A stretch of DNA of 15,735 nucleotides from Aquificota bacterium (GTDB lineage Bacteria; Aquificota; Aquificia; Aquificales; Hydrogenothermaceae): contig JAADDZ010000025.1 of NCBI GenBank assembly GCA_013153635.1, positions 1-15,735 on the forward strand. Direction: 5' to 3'. The translations under genes and the position numbers were made by a program. The notes below the pieces were generated by a model. That model saw nothing but the letters and a program-made list of their open reading frames with translations, searched no databases and was not told the DNA's origin. This document shows positions 2,003 to 8,841 of this stretch, piece after piece. The first letter of the stretch is position 1. The number at the start of each line of letters is the position of its first letter.

Positions 2003-2503
2003 TCAAAGCATGCTTTTGATAGCCGTGTCTATTCTTTTTTCTAGTTCTTCTACAGCTTTTTTAACTTTTGGATATTTTGTTCCATCTAACAGCATAGATA
2101 CTTTTGCTCTGACTATATAAGTGTAATCGTCGTCTTCTACTTGATATACAGTTATAACCATAGGAGATATAACTAATGCGTTAGGGTCTCCTGTAAATAT
2201 CTTGTACAAGGTTGATATGCTGGTAACAAGAAAGTTTTGTACAAAAGTGATATTTAGTTTGTCATAGTCAGAGAATATCTTTACGTTCGCTTCTAAAGGT
2301 GCAATAGGGTTAGTAGTATCCACTATGGTAATCTGTTGAGCTTCAAGGTTCATCTTTAGAAGTTGTACTACTTCGTCAGCATCTCCTTCGTATTTGTATA
2401 TGATTATGCCTTTTCCAGAGCTTTTTGTGTCAGGTTTCCATTGGGCATAAGAGAGTCCTAGTAATAGACAGGTAATATAAAGAAAAACGGTAAATTTTCT
2501 CAT
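2003..2503 (-). CDS. Secreted DUF302-like protein, distal gene of the sox operon
   Basis: This 166-aa protein has an N-terminal signal peptide (hydrophobic residues 6-19, likely cleavage after SYA at 20), so it acts outside the cytoplasm. The mature part has the pattern of DUF302-like proteins: an opening YKYEGDADEV strand/helix, a middle segment ending ISPMVITVYQVEDDD, and a C-terminal helix rich in charged residues. It lacks the Pro-Cys of its relative at 3878-4357 and has no Cys after the signal peptide. It is the last gene before the terminator and is preceded by a structured intergenic leader (2518-2571) and a strong AGGAGG site at 2508-2513. DUF302 has no established biochemical function; placement suggests a role in sulfur compound handling or the envelope. 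The family match is by pattern only. Confidence 0.6.
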   Translation of the reverse strand: MRKFTVFLYITCLLLGLSYAQWKPDTKSSGKGIIIYKYEGDADEVVQLLKMNLEAQQITIVDTTNPIAPLEANVKIFSDYDKLNITFVQNFLVTSISTLYKIFTGDPNALVISPMVITVYQVEDDDYTYIVRAKVSMLLDGTKYPKVKKAVEELEKRIDTAIKSML

Positions 2504-2574: not shown

Positions 2575-3858
2575 TTAATATATAAGCTGTAGTCCCATAC
2601 CTACATAAGAAAAGTCGAGATTTTTAATTTTGCCCCAGTCATAACTTATGTTTAACTTTAGGTTGTCTTTATTTATAAGCCAGTTTAAGCTCACTTCATA
2701 AAGCTCTTTTTTAGAGGCTACTCCTGTGTCACTTACGTAATCTCCGTTGTTATCGTATGGGTCTTCTTTTGATACCATAATAGCAGGTCTTATAATCTGT
2801 TTGTTCTTGAGGAAAAAGTTATACCCTGCTTTTACTGACCAAACCTTGTCTGTACCTTCTGTATTATCAAGTTTTTTTCTATATAACCAGTCATATTCGG
2901 CGTTGAAATCCCAAGGTCCGTAGTTTGCTAAAATGTCTACTCCGTACATATTGTTTTGTTTGAATACATCTGTTTCTCCTTGATAGGTGTAGTTTAGACC
3001 TATAGTGATACCGTTTCTCTTTCCGTAATAGGTCTGGGTGTAACCCATTTTGTATTTGGTCATTTCTGGGTCTCCAAAGCTCCATGCTACTCTCAATGCG
3101 AGTAGTGGAGACCATTTTATTCCGTCACCTACTCCTGCTTTTCCACTTCCGCCAATTACTTCGTTTCCATCTCCGTCACCGTCTCCCGGGTCAAACGTTA
3201 TTCCAGATTTGGAGTTGCCTATGATTTTCGTATGGTTTGTGTCAAAAATTCCTACATTGAAGTTAAATTTCTTTTCTAATGCTAATCCACCTATATTTAT
3301 ACCTGTTTCACGACCAGGACCTCTACCTACTATATGTTTTCTAGGGGTAAAGTTTGGTAAGGATTTTTGGAAAGATATAACTTTGAACGCTGTGGTTATA
3401 CTTTCTTTTCCTACTTGGGGTCTAAAGTACCCAACAGATACATTCGCCCATTCTGGGTCTAAAGACCATGTCCATATTGCGTCCCAGATGTAAAACTCTC
3501 TGTTCTCTGTTCCTGCTCCTTCTATGGAGCCTCCAGTTGTGTTTGGACCTCCTGTTCCAGCGGTTGCTTCATTTTTTCCTAAATTGTCGTATGCAAACCA
3601 TACCTTGAAGGTCATATCTTTTCTGATTTTACCTTTTACTCCTATTCTACCTCTTCTTATATACAGGTCATTTCTTGAGTCCATATTGTTATTGAAGCTG
3701 TCATTTTCTATTGTGTAGATGTTCCACACCTGAACCATCTGGAAAATCTCTATCCATTTTCCATCTCCAAAGTATACTCTTGGTTTTGCATGTGCATGTG
3801 AGGTAAAAAGTGCTAAAGTCCCTAAGCCTACCACTGAAGATACTATTACTTTTTTCAT
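2575..3858 (-). CDS. Outer-membrane porin, phosphate-selective porin O/P (OprP/OprO) type
   Basis: This 427-aa protein has a signal peptide (cleavage near AHA, residue 24), alternating beta strands rich in Tyr and Trp, and a C-terminal aromatic residue (LQLIY), all typical of outer-membrane beta-barrels. The segment DLYIRRGRIGVKGKI near residue 65 is the signature of the OprP/OprO anion porin family. Residues around 225-245 form an acidic, glycine-rich loop containing GDGDGDGN that could bind calcium. It follows the DUF302 gene by 20 bases with an AGGAGG site and lies in the same transcript as soxB. Inferred role: passage of anions such as thiosulfate or sulfate to and from the periplasmic Sox enzymes. 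The porin call is firm; the substrate is not. Confidence 0.85.
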   Translation of the reverse strand: MKKVIVSSVVGLGTLALFTSHAHAKPRVYFGDGKWIEIFQMVQVWNIYTIENDSFNNNMDSRNDLYIRRGRIGVKGKIRKDMTFKVWFAYDNLGKNEATAGTGGPNTTGGSIEGAGTENREFYIWDAIWTWSLDPEWANVSVGYFRPQVGKESITTAFKVISFQKSLPNFTPRKHIVGRGPGRETGINIGGLALEKKFNFNVGIFDTNHTKIIGNSKSGITFDPGDGDGDGNEVIGGSGKAGVGDGIKWSPLLALRVAWSFGDPEMTKYKMGYTQTYYGKRNGITIGLNYTYQGETDVFKQNNMYGVDILANYGPWDFNAEYDWLYRKKLDNTEGTDKVWSVKAGYNFFLKNKQIIRPAIMVSKEDPYDNNGDYVSDTGVASKKELYEVSLNWLINKDNLKLNISYDWGKIKNLDFSYVGMGLQLIY

Positions 3859-3877: not shown

Positions 3878-4357
3878 TTATTCTTTTAAAGCATTTATTA
3901 TTTCTCTCATCGTTTTTTCTACATACTTTATCGTTGTTATAGCTGTTTTGTCTTTTATTTTTAGTTTTTTTATAAGAGGAGATATTTTTGCCATTCCTAC
4001 CACAAGCTTGCCGTCTTTATCTTTGTATGTAAAGATTCTGCATGGGAAGTATCCTGCAAGATGAGGGTTATTTTTCATTATTTTGTATCCCATAGACAGA
4101 CTACAGGTTAGATATATCCTCATATCTTCCCAAAAATCTTTGTAGCCTTGCTCTTGTACACCTTTTGTTATGTTTAAGATTTTTATTATTTTTAGGTTTT
4201 TTCCTTCTGCTTCTGATTGGATTACCATGTCTGCCTCTTCTAACGACATGTCTACCTTTATCCAGTACAGTTCAGAATCTTCATAGCCAAAACTTATATT
4301 AAAAAGAAGGAGGTAAGCCGCAGTAAGGCTACCTAGCAGTATTTTTGTCAAGGACAT
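3878..4357 (-). CDS. Secreted DUF302-domain protein, between soxB and the porin
   Basis: This 159-aa protein has a signal peptide or N-terminal membrane anchor (hydrophobic residues 5-23). The mature part fits DUF302: an amphipathic first half, a KGVQEQGY segment, then HLAGYFPCRIFTYKDKDGKLVVGMAKISP, where the Pro-Cys and the dGKvvV strand are characteristic. It overlaps the end of soxB by 10 nt, and its AAAGGAGG ribosome binding site sits inside the last soxB codons, so the two are co-translated. The family function is not established. Its recurring association with sulfur or envelope genes and the conserved Cys suggest binding or handling of a small thiol or sulfur species in the periplasm, which is inference. 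Confidence 0.75.
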   Translation of the reverse strand: MSLTKILLGSLTAAYLLLFNISFGYEDSELYWIKVDMSLEEADMVIQSEAEGKNLKIIKILNITKGVQEQGYKDFWEDMRIYLTCSLSMGYKIMKNNPHLAGYFPCRIFTYKDKDGKLVVGMAKISPLIKKLKIKDKTAITTIKYVEKTMREIINALKE

Positions 4358-6084
4358 ATACCTCCTTTCTTAGGACAGCCACAGTTAATATCTATAACTT
4401 TTACATTTGATTTTAAAGGTGGAGCTACTACTTTCTTTCTTTTTACATAATCGATTACTATGTCGTATACAGGTCTAAATTTTTTGGCGTTTCTTCCAGC
4501 TCTGTGCAGGTTTCCACCCCACGCCGCAAGAACATAGTATCTATTTGGGTCAAATGGTTTTCCGTTTACATATATGTTTCTAAGCCTTTTTCCCATAGGA
4601 GCTGTGATTTTTATTTCGTATTCCATTCCGAGTAACCTGCTCATGTCTCCTCCTTGCTGATAGAGAGGATTTTCATTAAATACATTGTCAGCTATATCTT
4701 CTAGAATCATCTTTAGTTGAGAACCTTTCATCTCAAATCTATAGACATCTGGGTAGGTTATTGCTGTCATTTCGTATATGTTATCTACAGTTATTTCTTC
4801 TTCTGGTAAGATTGTAGTTCCCCATCTGTAGCCGGGTGTAAACACGATTTCTGCGTCTGTTTCTTCTTTTATAGCTTCAGATATAACTCTGTCAAAGGTC
4901 GAGTAGAATGTGTCTCTTTTGTACAGTAAGGTTTGGGTTTTCCCTATTACTTGGTTTAGTTTTTTCTCATAAGGTTTGTAATGATTGTTTATTAGGGTTT
5001 CCATTTGGGGGTCTGGTTTTATAAAGTTACTAGCTACTGGTATTAGCTTGTAGTTGTATTTTGTGATTTTTTTGCCTTTTACTTCAAGGTCTAACCTTCC
5101 TACATATTTTCCATGACTGCCGGCTATTACTATCATTGTGTTTCCAACGAATATAGGTTTTGGAGCTGGGTCGTGGGTATGTCCGCTAAATAAGATGTCG
5201 ATTCCTTTTACTTTTTTTGCAAGGGCGATGTCTAAAGAAAACCCGTCATGAGATAGGAGGACGACTAGGTCTACTTTTTTGTCGTTCTTTAGTTCGTCTA
5301 CAAGCTCTTGTAAGGTGTCCATTCTAACACCAAAAGTCCAGCCTTCTATGAATTCTTTTGGGTTGGCTATAGGAGTGTATGGGTATGAGTTTCCTATTAT
5401 TCCTATTTTTGCTCCGCCGACTTCTTTTATTGTGTATGGTTTAAAAACTCTCTCTTCCCACATAGAATCGAGAACGTTTTGGGAGATAAATTCAGCTTTT
5501 AGATGGTTATCTATTAGTTCCATCACTCTATCTTTTCCATATGTAAACTCCCAGTGTCCTACCATAACATCTATTCCAAGGGCGTTTTGAACGTCCACTA
5601 CCGCTTTTGCATTGGTAAATAAGGCTACAGCTGTTCCCTGCCATGTGTCTCCAGAGTCTAGAAAGAGTACTTTGTCTCTTCCTCTTTCTGAAATTATCTG
5701 TTTTACAAGGGTTGCCATATGGGCTACTCCACCCATTTTTCCATATTTGTGTGCTAGTTCTACAAAATCTACAGCTGTATCAAAGTACTGTCTTATAGAC
5801 CCTTTTTTGATTCCATAGTATTCTAGGTATGCTTCTCCACATAGGAATCCGGGTTCTCCTACTAATGATGGGTGAGACAGTAGGGTGGAGGGTTCTCTAA
5901 AGTATAAGGGTTTTAGATGGGCATGGAGGTCACATATGTGTAGAAGGGTTACTGTACCTACCGGTTTGAATTGGAAGATTTCTTCTGGTTTTAGTTTTGC
6001 TAGCTTTGCAAGAGCGTCTCCTCCTGTTGCTGTTAACCCTAAGACAGCCGCAAGTTCTAGAAAATCTCTTCTTGATAGATTCAT
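4348..6084 (-). CDS. soxB: SoxB, sulfate thiohydrolase of the Sox system
   Basis: This 578-aa protein belongs to the dimanganese 5'-nucleotidase-like family and removes sulfate from the SoxY-bound S-sulfonate in the periplasm. The N-terminus SRRDFLE is a Tat signal. The metal and active-site motifs are in order: DLHAHLKP (Asp52, His54, His56), DSGDTWQG (143-150), GHWEFTYG (176-183), SHDGF (His279) and GHTHD (His302, His304). GHWEFTYG is diagnostic of SoxB as opposed to other 5'-nucleotidases. The C-terminus carries an unusual cysteine-rich tail, NCGCPKKGGICP, with Cys568, Cys570 and Cys577. It starts 10 bases after soxA with a GGAGG site. The identification is firm; the purpose of the tail is unknown. 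Confidence 0.97.
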   Translation of the reverse strand: MNLSRRDFLELAAVLGLTATGGDALAKLAKLKPEEIFQFKPVGTVTLLHICDLHAHLKPLYFREPSTLLSHPSLVGEPGFLCGEAYLEYYGIKKGSIRQYFDTAVDFVELAHKYGKMGGVAHMATLVKQIISERGRDKVLFLDSGDTWQGTAVALFTNAKAVVDVQNALGIDVMVGHWEFTYGKDRVMELIDNHLKAEFISQNVLDSMWEERVFKPYTIKEVGGAKIGIIGNSYPYTPIANPKEFIEGWTFGVRMDTLQELVDELKNDKKVDLVVLLSHDGFSLDIALAKKVKGIDILFSGHTHDPAPKPIFVGNTMIVIAGSHGKYVGRLDLEVKGKKITKYNYKLIPVASNFIKPDPQMETLINNHYKPYEKKLNQVIGKTQTLLYKRDTFYSTFDRVISEAIKEETDAEIVFTPGYRWGTTILPEEEITVDNIYEMTAITYPDVYRFEMKGSQLKMILEDIADNVFNENPLYQQGGDMSRLLGMEYEIKITAPMGKRLRNIYVNGKPFDPNRYYVLAAWGGNLHRAGRNAKKFRPVYDIVIDYVKRKKVVAPPLKSNVKVIDINCGCPKKGGICP

Positions 6085-6094
6085 CTTTTACCTC

Positions 6095-6892
6095 CTACCT
6101 TACTAAACCGGGTGCATTTATTTCTGCCCCGTTAGAAAGGGAAGTTATGTATAGTTCTAGAGCTACCATTTCTTTTGAACCTAGAGGTAGTTTTTTCATA
6201 CCTGCATTTTTCATACATTGCTGGAATCTCTGTTCTATGGTGAACACTTTTGATTTGGTCATTCTGTATCCAGGCCAGTGAGCCGCCGCCGCAGTACCTT
6301 CTACTCCGTTTATACTTCCATTTCCTAATGGTTTTAACCATTGCATTCTAAGTCTTCTTCCTGCGGCAAATTCATGACATACTTGGCATGACAGGTATCT
6401 TTTTCCTCTTTTTGTTCTAAATACTTCTTTTCCATATTCGTAGTAGTCTTTTACTACTGGATTAGAAGATGTATCTACATCTATTTTTGTTCCTGATGCT
6501 ATATACTTTAGGTATGTGACCAATGCTACGTTTTGTTCGCTTTTTAGGGAAAAGGGTTTTGTTTTTTGATATTTTGCTTGACACATCTGAACTCTTTGCT
6601 GAAGAGAGACTACTTTGTTGCATTCTTTTTGGTATTTTGGATATTTCCCTATCTGGTTTATAAATTTGGTATCATCTGGATTATGACAGCTTGCACATGA
6701 TTTTTTCTCTGAACCCATTGGTTTGTTAAATAGCTCTCCTCCGATTTCTTCTGCGAAGACTTCCCCCGGATTTATACCTTCTTGGTATAGAGCCCAGTCT
6801 TCTGGGGATATAGCTTCTGGTTGAGCTGTAGCTATAGAGAATGTTGTCAAAATTGTTAAGACCCCAGACATGCTAATTTTGAGAATTCGCAT
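6095..6892 (-). CDS. soxA: SoxA, diheme c-type subunit of SoxAX
   Basis: This 265-aa protein has a Sec signal peptide (cleavage near residue 23, TAQ). Two heme c motifs are present: CASCH (66-70) and CQVCH (169-173). Each half has a conserved Cys suited as the distal heme ligand: Cys104 (RVQMCQ) and Cys226 (RFQQCM), the latter being the known catalytic position in SoxA. HWPGYR at 205-210 is also typical. SoxAX joins thiosulfate to the SoxY C-terminal cysteine by oxidative conjugation. It is a diheme SoxA, unlike the single-heme form of some bacteria. GGAGGG precedes the ATG by about 7 bases and soxZ ends 13 bases upstream. The identification is firm. Confidence 0.96.
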   Translation of the reverse strand: MRILKISMSGVLTILTTFSIATAQPEAISPEDWALYQEGINPGEVFAEEIGGELFNKPMGSEKKSCASCHNPDDTKFINQIGKYPKYQKECNKVVSLQQRVQMCQAKYQKTKPFSLKSEQNVALVTYLKYIASGTKIDVDTSSNPVVKDYYEYGKEVFRTKRGKRYLSCQVCHEFAAGRRLRMQWLKPLGNGSINGVEGTAAAAHWPGYRMTKSKVFTIEQRFQQCMKNAGMKKLPLGSKEMVALELYITSLSNGAEINAPGLVR

Positions 6893-6905: not shown

Positions 6906-7238
6906 TTATTGGGCAAATTTTATTTTGACGACTTTTTCTGTTACGTCTCCTGTGTTGTCTTTCCATACGATTTTAAGTGGAGCTTCTTTGTCCACTTTTA
7001 TGTTGAATGCTATAAATGGGTTTGCGCTAAGTCCTGATGTTGTTTTCATATATGTTACTTTTTCTCCTGCGTAGTAGACTTCTACATCTGTTATGTAGTG
7101 GGCTGGAATTACTTTTCCTGTTTTTTTGTCTTTTCTCATTCCTGTTTCCATAGGGTGCATGATTACTGTTGCTACTGTAACTATGTCTCCTTTTTTGTAT
7201 CTTCTTGGTTTAATTTTCACTAAAGCTTTTCTTGGCAT
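6906..7238 (-). CDS. soxZ: SoxZ, scaffold partner of SoxY
   Basis: This 110-aa immunoglobulin-like protein has no signal peptide, as usual for SoxZ, which is exported as a complex with the Tat substrate SoxY. Diagnostic parts are the start with KIKPRRYKKGDIVTVATVI, the HPMETGMRKD segment near residue 28, and the YYAGEKV and SANPFIAF strands. SoxYZ carries the sulfur intermediates between SoxXA and SoxB in the periplasm. It is 28 bases after soxY with a strong AGGAGG site. The identification is firm. Confidence 0.96.
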   Translation of the reverse strand: MPRKALVKIKPRRYKKGDIVTVATVIMHPMETGMRKDKKTGKVIPAHYITDVEVYYAGEKVTYMKTTSGLSANPFIAFNIKVDKEAPLKIVWKDNTGDVTEKVVKIKFAQ

Positions 7239-7266: not shown

Positions 7267-7710
7267 TTAACCACAACCGCCTATTGTTACTTTTACTTTT
7301 TGTGATGCTTCTAAGAAAGAACCATCATTTAGTTCAGCTAAGGCATGAACTACTGTGGTTTTTGCTAGTTTTATTCGGGTACTGATAAAGGCTCTTCCGT
7401 TTTGAGGTGTGAAGTAAATGGAGAACACATAAGGATTTGGGTTGTCTTTGGCAAATACGTGAATCGCTTTTACCTGTTCTACGGGAAGGTTTACTAGTAC
7501 TTTGATTGGTACTACTGCTCCGTTTTCAGCTATTTCTGGAGCTTTTAGCTGAACTTTGTCTGATGGTGTAGGTGTTTTCCCTCCAGTGATTTTCATGAGG
7601 GCTTGCTGGAACTTGTCTGGATTTGCGTGTGCCTTTTTTGAAAAGGTGGGAGAGACCGCTACTACTGATACTGCTATGGACATGGTTTTTAAGAAATTTC
7701 TTCTATCCAT
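7267..7710 (-). CDS. soxY: SoxY, sulfur-carrier protein of the Sox system
   Basis: This 147-aa protein has a Tat signal (DRRNFLK at 2-8, followed by a hydrophobic stretch) and ends in IGGCG, the swinging-arm C-terminus whose Cys146 carries covalently bound thiosulfate-derived sulfur. The middle has the SoxY Ig-like fold with VPIKVLVNLP and FTPQNGRAFISTRI strands. It pairs with SoxZ, the next gene. A ribosome binding site AGGAGG lies in the 12-base gap after the thioredoxin-like gene. The identification is firm. Confidence 0.97.
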   Translation of the reverse strand: MDRRNFLKTMSIAVSVVAVSPTFSKKAHANPDKFQQALMKITGGKTPTPSDKVQLKAPEIAENGAVVPIKVLVNLPVEQVKAIHVFAKDNPNPYVFSIYFTPQNGRAFISTRIKLAKTTVVHALAELNDGSFLEASQKVKVTIGGCG

Positions 7711-7722
7711 TTTTAACCTCCT

Positions 7723-8157
7723 TTATTTCATAAAATATTCTGTCATTGGTATTTTTTTGTATGAGCCTGTTGAAAAGTATTCTAGTATCTTTAGGAAATC
7801 TTTTTTTTCCCAAGCTCCGAAGATACTTTTTATTAGTTCTCCATTTTTGTCTATGAAGTAGAACATTGGAGTTCCTATAAACCCGTATTGGACTTTTATA
7901 AAGTGTCCGTCGTCTGTACATTTTCTAATTTTTACAGGAATAAAGTGTTTGGTAATTATTTCTTGGATTTTTTTGTCTGTAAATACTTTTTTTTCCATAT
8001 CTTTGCAGTAGTGACATTTTGGAGAATAGAGATATACGAATATTATTTTGTTTTCTTTTTCTGCTCTTTTAAAAGCGGTATCTAGGTCTGTTTCCCAAGA
8101 TATGTTTGCTTTTGTATTTCCTATAAAAAGTAGAATTACTAAAAATGCTCTAACCAT
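7723..8157 (-). CDS. Periplasmic thioredoxin-fold protein (SoxW-like)
   Basis: This 144-aa protein has a short N-terminal signal peptide (residues 4-17) and a thioredoxin fold: FVYLYSPKCHYCKDM with the redox pair Cys48-His-Tyr-Cys51, and a GTP segment with cis-Pro97. A third cysteine, Cys80, occurs in VKIRKC. It lies between soxX and soxY, the position where SoxW/SoxV-type reductants are found in other sox operons. The likely job is keeping the SoxY cysteine, or the extra cysteines of SoxX and SoxB, in the reduced form. No SoxV/CcdA-like electron donor is visible in this window. The ribosome binding site is weak (AGAAGAAAG), and the stop of soxX is only 7 bases upstream, which suggests coupling. 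Confidence 0.8.
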   Translation of the reverse strand: MVRAFLVILLFIGNTKANISWETDLDTAFKRAEKENKIIFVYLYSPKCHYCKDMEKKVFTDKKIQEIITKHFIPVKIRKCTDDGHFIKVQYGFIGTPMFYFIDKNGELIKSIFGAWEKKDFLKILEYFSTGSYKKIPMTEYFMK

Positions 8158-8164
8158 CTTTCTT

Positions 8165-8689
8165 CTATTTTAGAGTCATTAGATATGCTGTTATTGCACA
8201 GACTTGGTCGTAGGTTAATGCTCCTGTGGTTAGGTTGACTGTCATTGTATTGAAGTAGGGGTTGTCTTTGAACTCTGGAGGTATTTGGACTCTAAAGTCT
8301 GCTACTCTCTGGAACAGCCATTGTATATCCTTTTTTTGTCCTCCTATGTATTCTGCTTTGAACAGGGTGTTCATGTACCCAGTAAGGTCAGGACCTACAT
8401 CTCCACAACCAGTTGCATTTGGCGCACAGTGACAAGCTACACAGTTCGCTATTTTTGTGCTTAGGTATAACTTTCTTCCTTCTTCTGCTTTTTTCTGGAC
8501 AAATTTAGGGTCTGTTAGTTTGCAGTTGTCAGGTATGGCATAGATTGTTGGTCCAGGGGGAATATCTTTTAATAGAGCTTGTCTTCCGTCTGGAGATTCT
8601 ATCCCGGGACAGTTTTGGGCATCTGCATATAGAACTGTTATCGAGGTAACTGCAAGGAGTGAAATCCCAATTTTTTTCAAAAATTTCAT
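8165..8689 (-). CDS. soxX: SoxX, monoheme c-type subunit of SoxAX
   Basis: This 174-aa protein has a Sec signal peptide (residues 1-24, likely cleavage after ADA) and one heme c motif, CVACH (83-87). The downstream DVGPDLTGY and Met149 (NTMTVN) correspond to the heme environment and the axial Met. It forms SoxAX with the soxA product. It has five more cysteines (27, 56, 88, 95, 164), of which Cys88 and Cys95 sit in a CHCAPNATGCG insertion right after the heme motif, unlike most SoxX. It is the first gene of the operon, with GGAGGATTAGA before the ATG and a probable sigma-54 promoter about 40 bases upstream. The identification is firm. Confidence 0.95.
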   Translation of the reverse strand: MKFLKKIGISLLAVTSITVLYADAQNCPGIESPDGRQALLKDIPPGPTIYAIPDNCKLTDPKFVQKKAEEGRKLYLSTKIANCVACHCAPNATGCGDVGPDLTGYMNTLFKAEYIGGQKKDIQWLFQRVADFRVQIPPEFKDNPYFNTMTVNLTTGALTYDQVCAITAYLMTLK

Positions 8690-8725: not shown

Positions 8726-8741
8726 ATCAATTTTTGTGCCA
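8726..8741 (-). promoter_or_regulatory. Candidate sigma-54 -24/-12 promoter of the sox operon
   Basis: On the minus strand the element reads TGGCAC, five A, then TTGAT, against the consensus TGGCACN5TTGCW. It matches the -24 half completely and has the exact spacing; the -12 half has A instead of C. The start site would be near 8715, leaving a leader of about 26 bases that contains the GGAGG site. The same region holds TATATT, a possible sigma-70 -10 box, but no matching -35 box is seen. Confidence 0.55.
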
Positions 8742-8793
8742 AAGGGCTGGTCTTTTATTTTAGGGGTCTTTAGGGTTGTGGCCTATTATCTGG

Positions 8794-8809
8794 TGTTCCA
8801 TTTGGAACA
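8794..8809. promoter_or_regulatory. Perfect 7+7 palindrome, likely activator site 1
   Basis: TGTTCCA, a 2-base centre, then TGGAACA form an inverted repeat centred at 8801.5. This is about 86 bases upstream of the predicted sox start site, the usual distance for an NtrC-family enhancer site. No T-run follows, so it is not a terminator of the upstream gene. It may bind a dimeric regulator. Confidence 0.55.
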
Positions 8810-8825
8810 GTTGTTTTGATTTTGG

Positions 8826-8841
8826 TGTGCTAAATGGAACA
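8826..8841. promoter_or_regulatory. Degenerate copy of the palindrome, likely activator site 2
   Basis: TGTGCTA, AA, then TGGAACA. The right arm is identical to that of the first site and the left arm differs at two positions. Its centre at 8833.5 is 32 bp from the first, close to three helix turns, so both sites face the same side of DNA. It ends 2 bases from the stop codon of the PilM/PilN-like gene. Confidence 0.45.

Follow-up and report, generated by a model that had tools for sequence, protein, structure and literature searches.

Sigma-54 promoter and phased enhancer sites predicted to control the sox operon in Hydrogenothermaceae

Known sox regulators and the control region upstream of soxX

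In Acidithiobacillus caldus, the TspS/TspR system drives sox from a sigma-54 promoter via the upstream activating sequence (UAS) TGTCCCAAATGGGACA, as shown experimentally (PMC6335251, reviewing Li et al. 2017). Here we analyzed a 15,735 nt stretch of DNA from an Aquificota bacterium of the family Hydrogenothermaceae (contig JAADDZ010000025.1; hereafter the window), in which the sox operon is encoded on the minus strand and its first gene, soxX, starts with an ATG at position 8689. The interval 8726-8841 upstream of soxX carries a sigma-54 promoter element (TTGGCACAAAAATTGAT) and two palindromes, a perfect proximal copy (TGTTCCAAATGGAACA) and a degenerate distal copy (TGTTCCATTTAGCACA). Conservation among relatives strongly supports the assignment of this interval as the control region of the sox operon, with a functional promoter and enhancer pair. 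The promoter and its phased pair of sites, read by an NtrC-family activator encoded on another contig of the same genome, very probably control sox.

As in the TspS/TspR system, site and promoter stand before soxX and the response regulator is composed of REC, AAA+ and Fis domains. The sigma-54 regulator gene likewise lies upstream of soxX in many relatives, although the orthologue in the window genome is instead found on contig 3. The A. caldus UAS occurs exactly in one family genome (G087) and differs from TGTTCCAAATGGAACA by one symmetrical C-to-T/G-to-A change per arm. The suggestion in the first-pass annotation that enhancer-type Sox control may be new therefore fails, because A. caldus uses essentially the same site (PMC6335251). 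Unlike TspS/TspR, the switch considered here belongs to the phylum Aquificota, and the likeness is drawn from site, promoter and domain make-up. Moreover, a PhnD-like binding protein and a DsrE-like protein go with the kinase, the regulator module lies apart from sox in the window genome as well as in several relatives, the -12 dinucleotide of the window is GA, and a candidate small RNA is a possible second target. The ArsR-family SoxR and the CsoR-like TTHA1953 (PMC10318464) also control sox, but they represent other protein families and involve no enhancer, sigma-54 or ATPase step. We found no description of sigma-54/enhancer control of sox in Aquificota in the open literature, most subscription papers lying outside this scope, and a cross-phylum survey of sigma-54 leaves sox unmentioned. 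The Aquificota case of this switch thus seems to be undescribed.

Conservation and phasing of the promoter and palindromes

The window sequence alone only partly shows that these elements did not arise by chance. Inverted repeats with 7-bp arms were present in 4% (loop 0-4) to 14% (loop 0-20) of shuffled versions of the intergenic region, and TGGCAC-N5-TTGAT with at most one mismatch occurs 14 times genome-wide versus 12 times for the reversed control, i.e. without enrichment. The experimentally defined Acidithiobacillus UAS, TGTCCCA-N2-TGGGACA, served as an independent test, since this literature motif was not fitted to our data; the best site against it reached p ~0.001 in the window (1000 shuffles), and for 17 representatives spanning eight genera the values were all in the range p 0.001-0.003. 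As the single-genome statistics are too weak to decide, we relied on comparison across genomes.

SoxX was detected in 27 of the 41 Hydrogenothermaceae genomes, which are related to each other, so that counts inside one genus are worth about one observation. All of the 24 soxX loci with enough upstream DNA harbor a sigma-54 element within one mismatch of TTGGCAY-N5-TTGCW, and GG-N10-G is retained in every one of them. The -12 base is located 31-39 nt before the start codon, except in three genomes belonging to a single genus, where the distance is 57-58 nt. This base is C in 17 loci, A in three and T in four, A being carried by both soxX-bearing members of the window's genus and by G086. Because A or T is found in 7 of the 24 loci, the mismatch in the window falls within natural variation. 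The first-pass annotation had described TGGCAC-N5-TTGAT with one mismatch upstream of soxX, along with a perfect and a degenerate palindrome 32 bp apart at about -86 and -118, and the sequence agrees on both counts (Table 1).

An extended -10 string (TGATATATT, 8729-8721) overlaps the -12 element, and the sigma-70 polymerase might transcribe sox from it, with the palindromes binding an ordinary activator or repressor. The presence of TG-A-TATATT and the absence of the -12 C in the window would fit such an arrangement. However, a minus-strand consensus scan of the region returned no sigma-70 promoter, and the -10-like string is not retained in the nearest sox-bearing relative (TTGATATCCATT), whereas the GG-N10-G of the sigma-54 element persists throughout. 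In addition, the activator beside sox in relatives contains a sigma-54 interaction domain. We consider transcription by sigma-70 polymerase to be very unlikely and favor the sigma-54 promoter.

All 23 loci with longer upstream DNA contain a palindrome that departs from TGTYCCA-N2-TGGRACA at no more than two positions, 22 of them at no more than one, and a second copy is usual among the relatives while being weak in some genera. Exact matches to the degenerate motif number 33 in the 41 genomes, versus one for its reversed control; 24 of the 33 stand before soxX, including two in G101, whose promoter and soxX lie on separate contigs. The exact palindrome TGTTCCAAATGGAACA is present in a single copy in the 1.69 Mb window genome. 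A genome scan for the repeat, as proposed in the first-pass annotation, thus returned the site before soxX but added no further targets, every other examined site within one mismatch of the degenerate motif being intragenic. The elements before soxX are kept in eight genera, though the upstream genes differ, and the loss of palindromes in close relatives that had been named as evidence against the initial proposal was not observed.

Given the frequency of such repeats in shuffled sequences, the palindromes could be a chance inverted repeat, or else the terminator of the upstream gene. A terminator-like match does exist, but on the plus strand only, and the minus strand, which carries the upstream gene, lacks a T run after the repeat; a terminator or hairpin role was therefore rejected. 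The maintenance of base sequence and phasing across genera with differing upstream genes already contradicts both versions of this explanation, which we regard as extremely improbable compared with a role as enhancer sites.

The two palindromes in the window are centered at -86.5 and -118.5 relative to the predicted transcription start, 32 bp apart, and the distal one lies 1 base past the stop codon of the upstream gene. Three helix turns separate the two centers in genera g1, g2 and g7 (32-33 bp) and in g4 (35 bp), and two turns in g3, g5, g6 and g9 (21-23 bp). With one value taken per genus, the inter-site phase is clustered at 10.5 bp (R 0.86, p ~0.001 versus uniform spacings of 16-40), although the register of the second site is less certain in the two-turn genera because it is often weak there. 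The distance of the proximal site from the predicted start is variable, about -74 to -142. Phased sites at a variable distance from the promoter are what a looping enhancer requires, in agreement with the NtrC-type spacing, phasing and distance pointed out in the first-pass annotation.

The activator and its sensor module

The window genome encodes a single RpoN (L018, E 2.3e-59) and eight full-length sigma-54 activators. In many relatives, the gene for an NtrC-family response regulator is located directly before soxX or a few genes off. The best match to these sox-linked activators in the window genome is C3:121841-123172, at 64-76% identity when six of the eight activators served as the reference set. 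In a tree including all eight, the sox-linked and unlinked copies form one clade together with this protein (support 100/100). The recognition helix GISRKQLRTKMKN is invariant in 24 of 24 full-length copies and absent from every other activator extracted from the window genome, G104 and G101. The NtrC-family activator postulated at the outset is thus strongly supported by RpoN and by the single orthologue of the relatives' soxX-adjacent activator, and the contig 3 protein is, with high probability, the dedicated regulator of the sox sites.

Sox and the activator occur together in 24 of the 41 family genomes and are both missing in 13, leaving four discordant cases. G074, a draft of 270 contigs, has the activator only, and G090 is 78% complete with a contig that ends at soxX. 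In G078 (C11; L133, L164), the activator gene contains 11 stops, soxX is broken and soxA also looks decayed, while the enhancer site and promoter remain; the three genes appear to have decayed jointly, although sequencing error is possible. G101 has sox without the activator. Loss of the enhancer sites was rejected in this genome, in which one contig carries the intact sites together with the promoter and a second contig carries soxX. Both contig edges facing the gap carry TnpB-type (IS605-like) sequence; a mobile element therefore seems to separate the promoter from soxX, and G101 may represent a natural uncoupling of sox from the switch. In Aquificaceae, none of 33 sox-bearing genomes has the activator at the threshold used, and the DNA preceding the first sox gene holds no similar site or promoter in any of the ten sox-bearing loci examined.

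Several observations weigh against control of sox by the contig 3 activator through a sigma-54 promoter. The -12 dinucleotide is GA for GC, the sole sigma-54 mismatch in the window; the distal site TGTTCCATTTAGCACA has two mismatches; and the regulator gene is unlinked from sox. Furthermore, G104 carries the motif and a sigma-54 promoter before a candidate small RNA unit, with neither sox nor an orthologue of the activator found, and another activator may read the motif there. The separation of the regulator from sox and the case of G104 would both be accommodated if the promoter were sigma-54-dependent but a different one of the eight activators were the main reader of its palindromes. Against this stand the adjacency of the contig 3-type activator to soxX in many relatives, its single clade, its co-occurrence with sox and its invariant recognition helix, which the other activators lack. 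We give a different activator little credence and retain the contig 3 protein as the probable regulator.

At its locus, the activator gene is divergent from genes encoding a DsrE-like protein, a PhnD-like protein (PF12974) and a histidine kinase (C3:118788-120374). This module accompanies the activator family-wide, though not each gene is found at each locus, in some cases because the contig ends. In the relative G075, the whole module is immediately upstream of soxX, and in the window genome it lies elsewhere with the sites still at sox. A flavocytochrome c sulfide dehydrogenase gene (L075:8500-9768) separates the activator module from soxX in genera g5 and g9, where the control region thus comes after a gene for sulfide oxidation.

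The kinase (L093:1789-3375) contains four cytoplasmic cysteines, invariant across 15 copies, in the segment linking its membrane part to its kinase part (C.K.....CWL ... eC..C), and the PhnD-like protein (L093:3372-4184) has three that are invariant in 17 copies (C..V; iC.SNC.MPLY), which may point to redox or covalent sulfur sensing. TspS carries an sCache_3_2 domain (PMC12194929), to which the window-genome kinase shows only a sub-threshold match (14.6 bits, E 0.035, against a cut-off of 28.4). ThsS/ThsR and TtrS/TtrR likewise use a PhnD-like periplasmic domain, which senses thiosulfate in ThsS and tetrathionate in TtrS (PMC5408782), and a sulfur oxyanion is therefore the likely signal in Hydrogenothermaceae by analogy. 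In those systems the domain is inside the kinase; its counterpart here is a separate protein with a predicted ligand, encoded alongside a response regulator of the sigma-54 activator type.

We propose that the NtrC-family regulator would bind as dimers to both palindromes on the same face of the DNA and would be phosphorylated by its partner kinase. The phosphorylated regulator would then loop to the sigma-54 RNA polymerase at -24/-12 and open the promoter with ATP, so that soxX-trx-soxYZAB and the downstream genes would be made while the kinase is on. The kinase would respond to a reduced sulfur compound, e.g. thiosulfate, probably in part via the co-encoded PhnD-like periplasmic binding protein.

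Table 1. Features of the sox locus in the window, and related features in other contigs and genomes
Feature	Position	Strand	Basis or remark
Sigma-54 promoter element, TTGGCAC-AAAAA-TTGAT	8742-8726	-	sequence and comparison of relatives
-24 GG	8740-8739	-	sequence
-12 GA	8728-8727	-	sequence
Predicted transcription start	8715	-	sigma-54 promoter geometry, 12 nt from -12 base
Proximal enhancer site, perfect palindrome	8809-8794	-	conserved
Distal enhancer site, degenerate copy	8841-8826	-	second site in most relatives
soxX ribosome binding site, AGGAGG	8701-8696	-	sequence
soxX	8165-8689	-	NCBIfam TIGR04485, above cut-off
Thioredoxin-like protein, conserved second gene	7723-8157	-	Pfam PF13899; synteny
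soxY	7267-7710	-	TIGR04488
soxZ	6906-7238	-	TIGR04490
soxA	6095-6892	-	TIGR04484
soxB	4348-6084	-	TIGR04486
DUF302 protein, operon-conserved	3878-4357	-	PF03625; synteny
Porin-like protein, operon-conserved	2575-3858	-	PF07396; synteny
Conserved protein, no Pfam match	2003-2503	-	synteny; ends conserved run in many relatives
G101 gap edges	C40:600-880 (L150) and C10 (L078:7782-10051)		TnpB/IS605-type sequence
Candidate small RNA copies (L197-L216), e.g.	G065:C10:38422-38539; G097:C1:526238-526341; G000:C12:45861-45972		

Outside the sox locus, TTGGCAC-N5-TTGAT with -12 GA is found directly before fliA in the window genome (G000:C9:74609-74624; L001), where it is likely to be a sigma-54 promoter for the flagellar sigma factor. 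In G072 (L074:5076-6686), the GTP cyclohydrolase I gene is split by an intein-like insert with LAGLIDADG domains.

A candidate small RNA family and its implications

In LuxO-Qrr and GlrR-GlmY, NtrC-family activators drive small RNAs from sigma-54 promoters. In Hydrogenothermaceae, the motif palindromes and a sigma-54 promoter also precede an intergenic unit of ~70-100 nt with an intrinsic terminator, which is often downstream of an O-methyltransferase gene and has a C-rich, anti-Shine-Dalgarno-like core (CTGCTGC / CTACCTCCTCC). This is comparable to the two known systems, although the binding sites and signals differ and the small RNA is predicted. A model built from ten copies matches in about twenty family genomes; it includes the promoter and favors sigma-54-driven copies by construction. 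Most copies have sox-type palindromes upstream, and the copy in the window genome (E 8e-4) has no recognizable palindromes in front of it. The copies tested against Rfam matched no family. This candidate sigma-54-driven small RNA family is the newer part of our findings.

Several g7 genomes have sox and the activator but no clear small RNA copy. As these genomes and G104 break the co-occurrence, common control of sox and the small RNA is put forward only as a hypothesis. It is conceivable, if rather doubtful at present, that a small sulfur regulon in Hydrogenothermaceae is governed by the sox enhancer protein and is composed of sox and a sigma-54-dependent small RNA (core CCTGCTGCTAA ... CTACCTCCTCC, intrinsic terminator), with the signal entering via a separate PhnD-like protein that feeds the four-cysteine kinase. 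If true, lithotrophy would here follow a LuxO-Qrr-like logic.

The probable regulator and target sites of the main operon for thiosulfate oxidation are thereby named in a family that is important in hot springs and for which we found no sox regulator described. A Tsp-type switch would occur in two phyla, and its regulator can separate from the operon while the sites stay. Sites that hold their sequence and helix phase while their spacing shifts by one full turn between genera also offer a clean test, set up by nature, of whether enhancer binding is cooperative.
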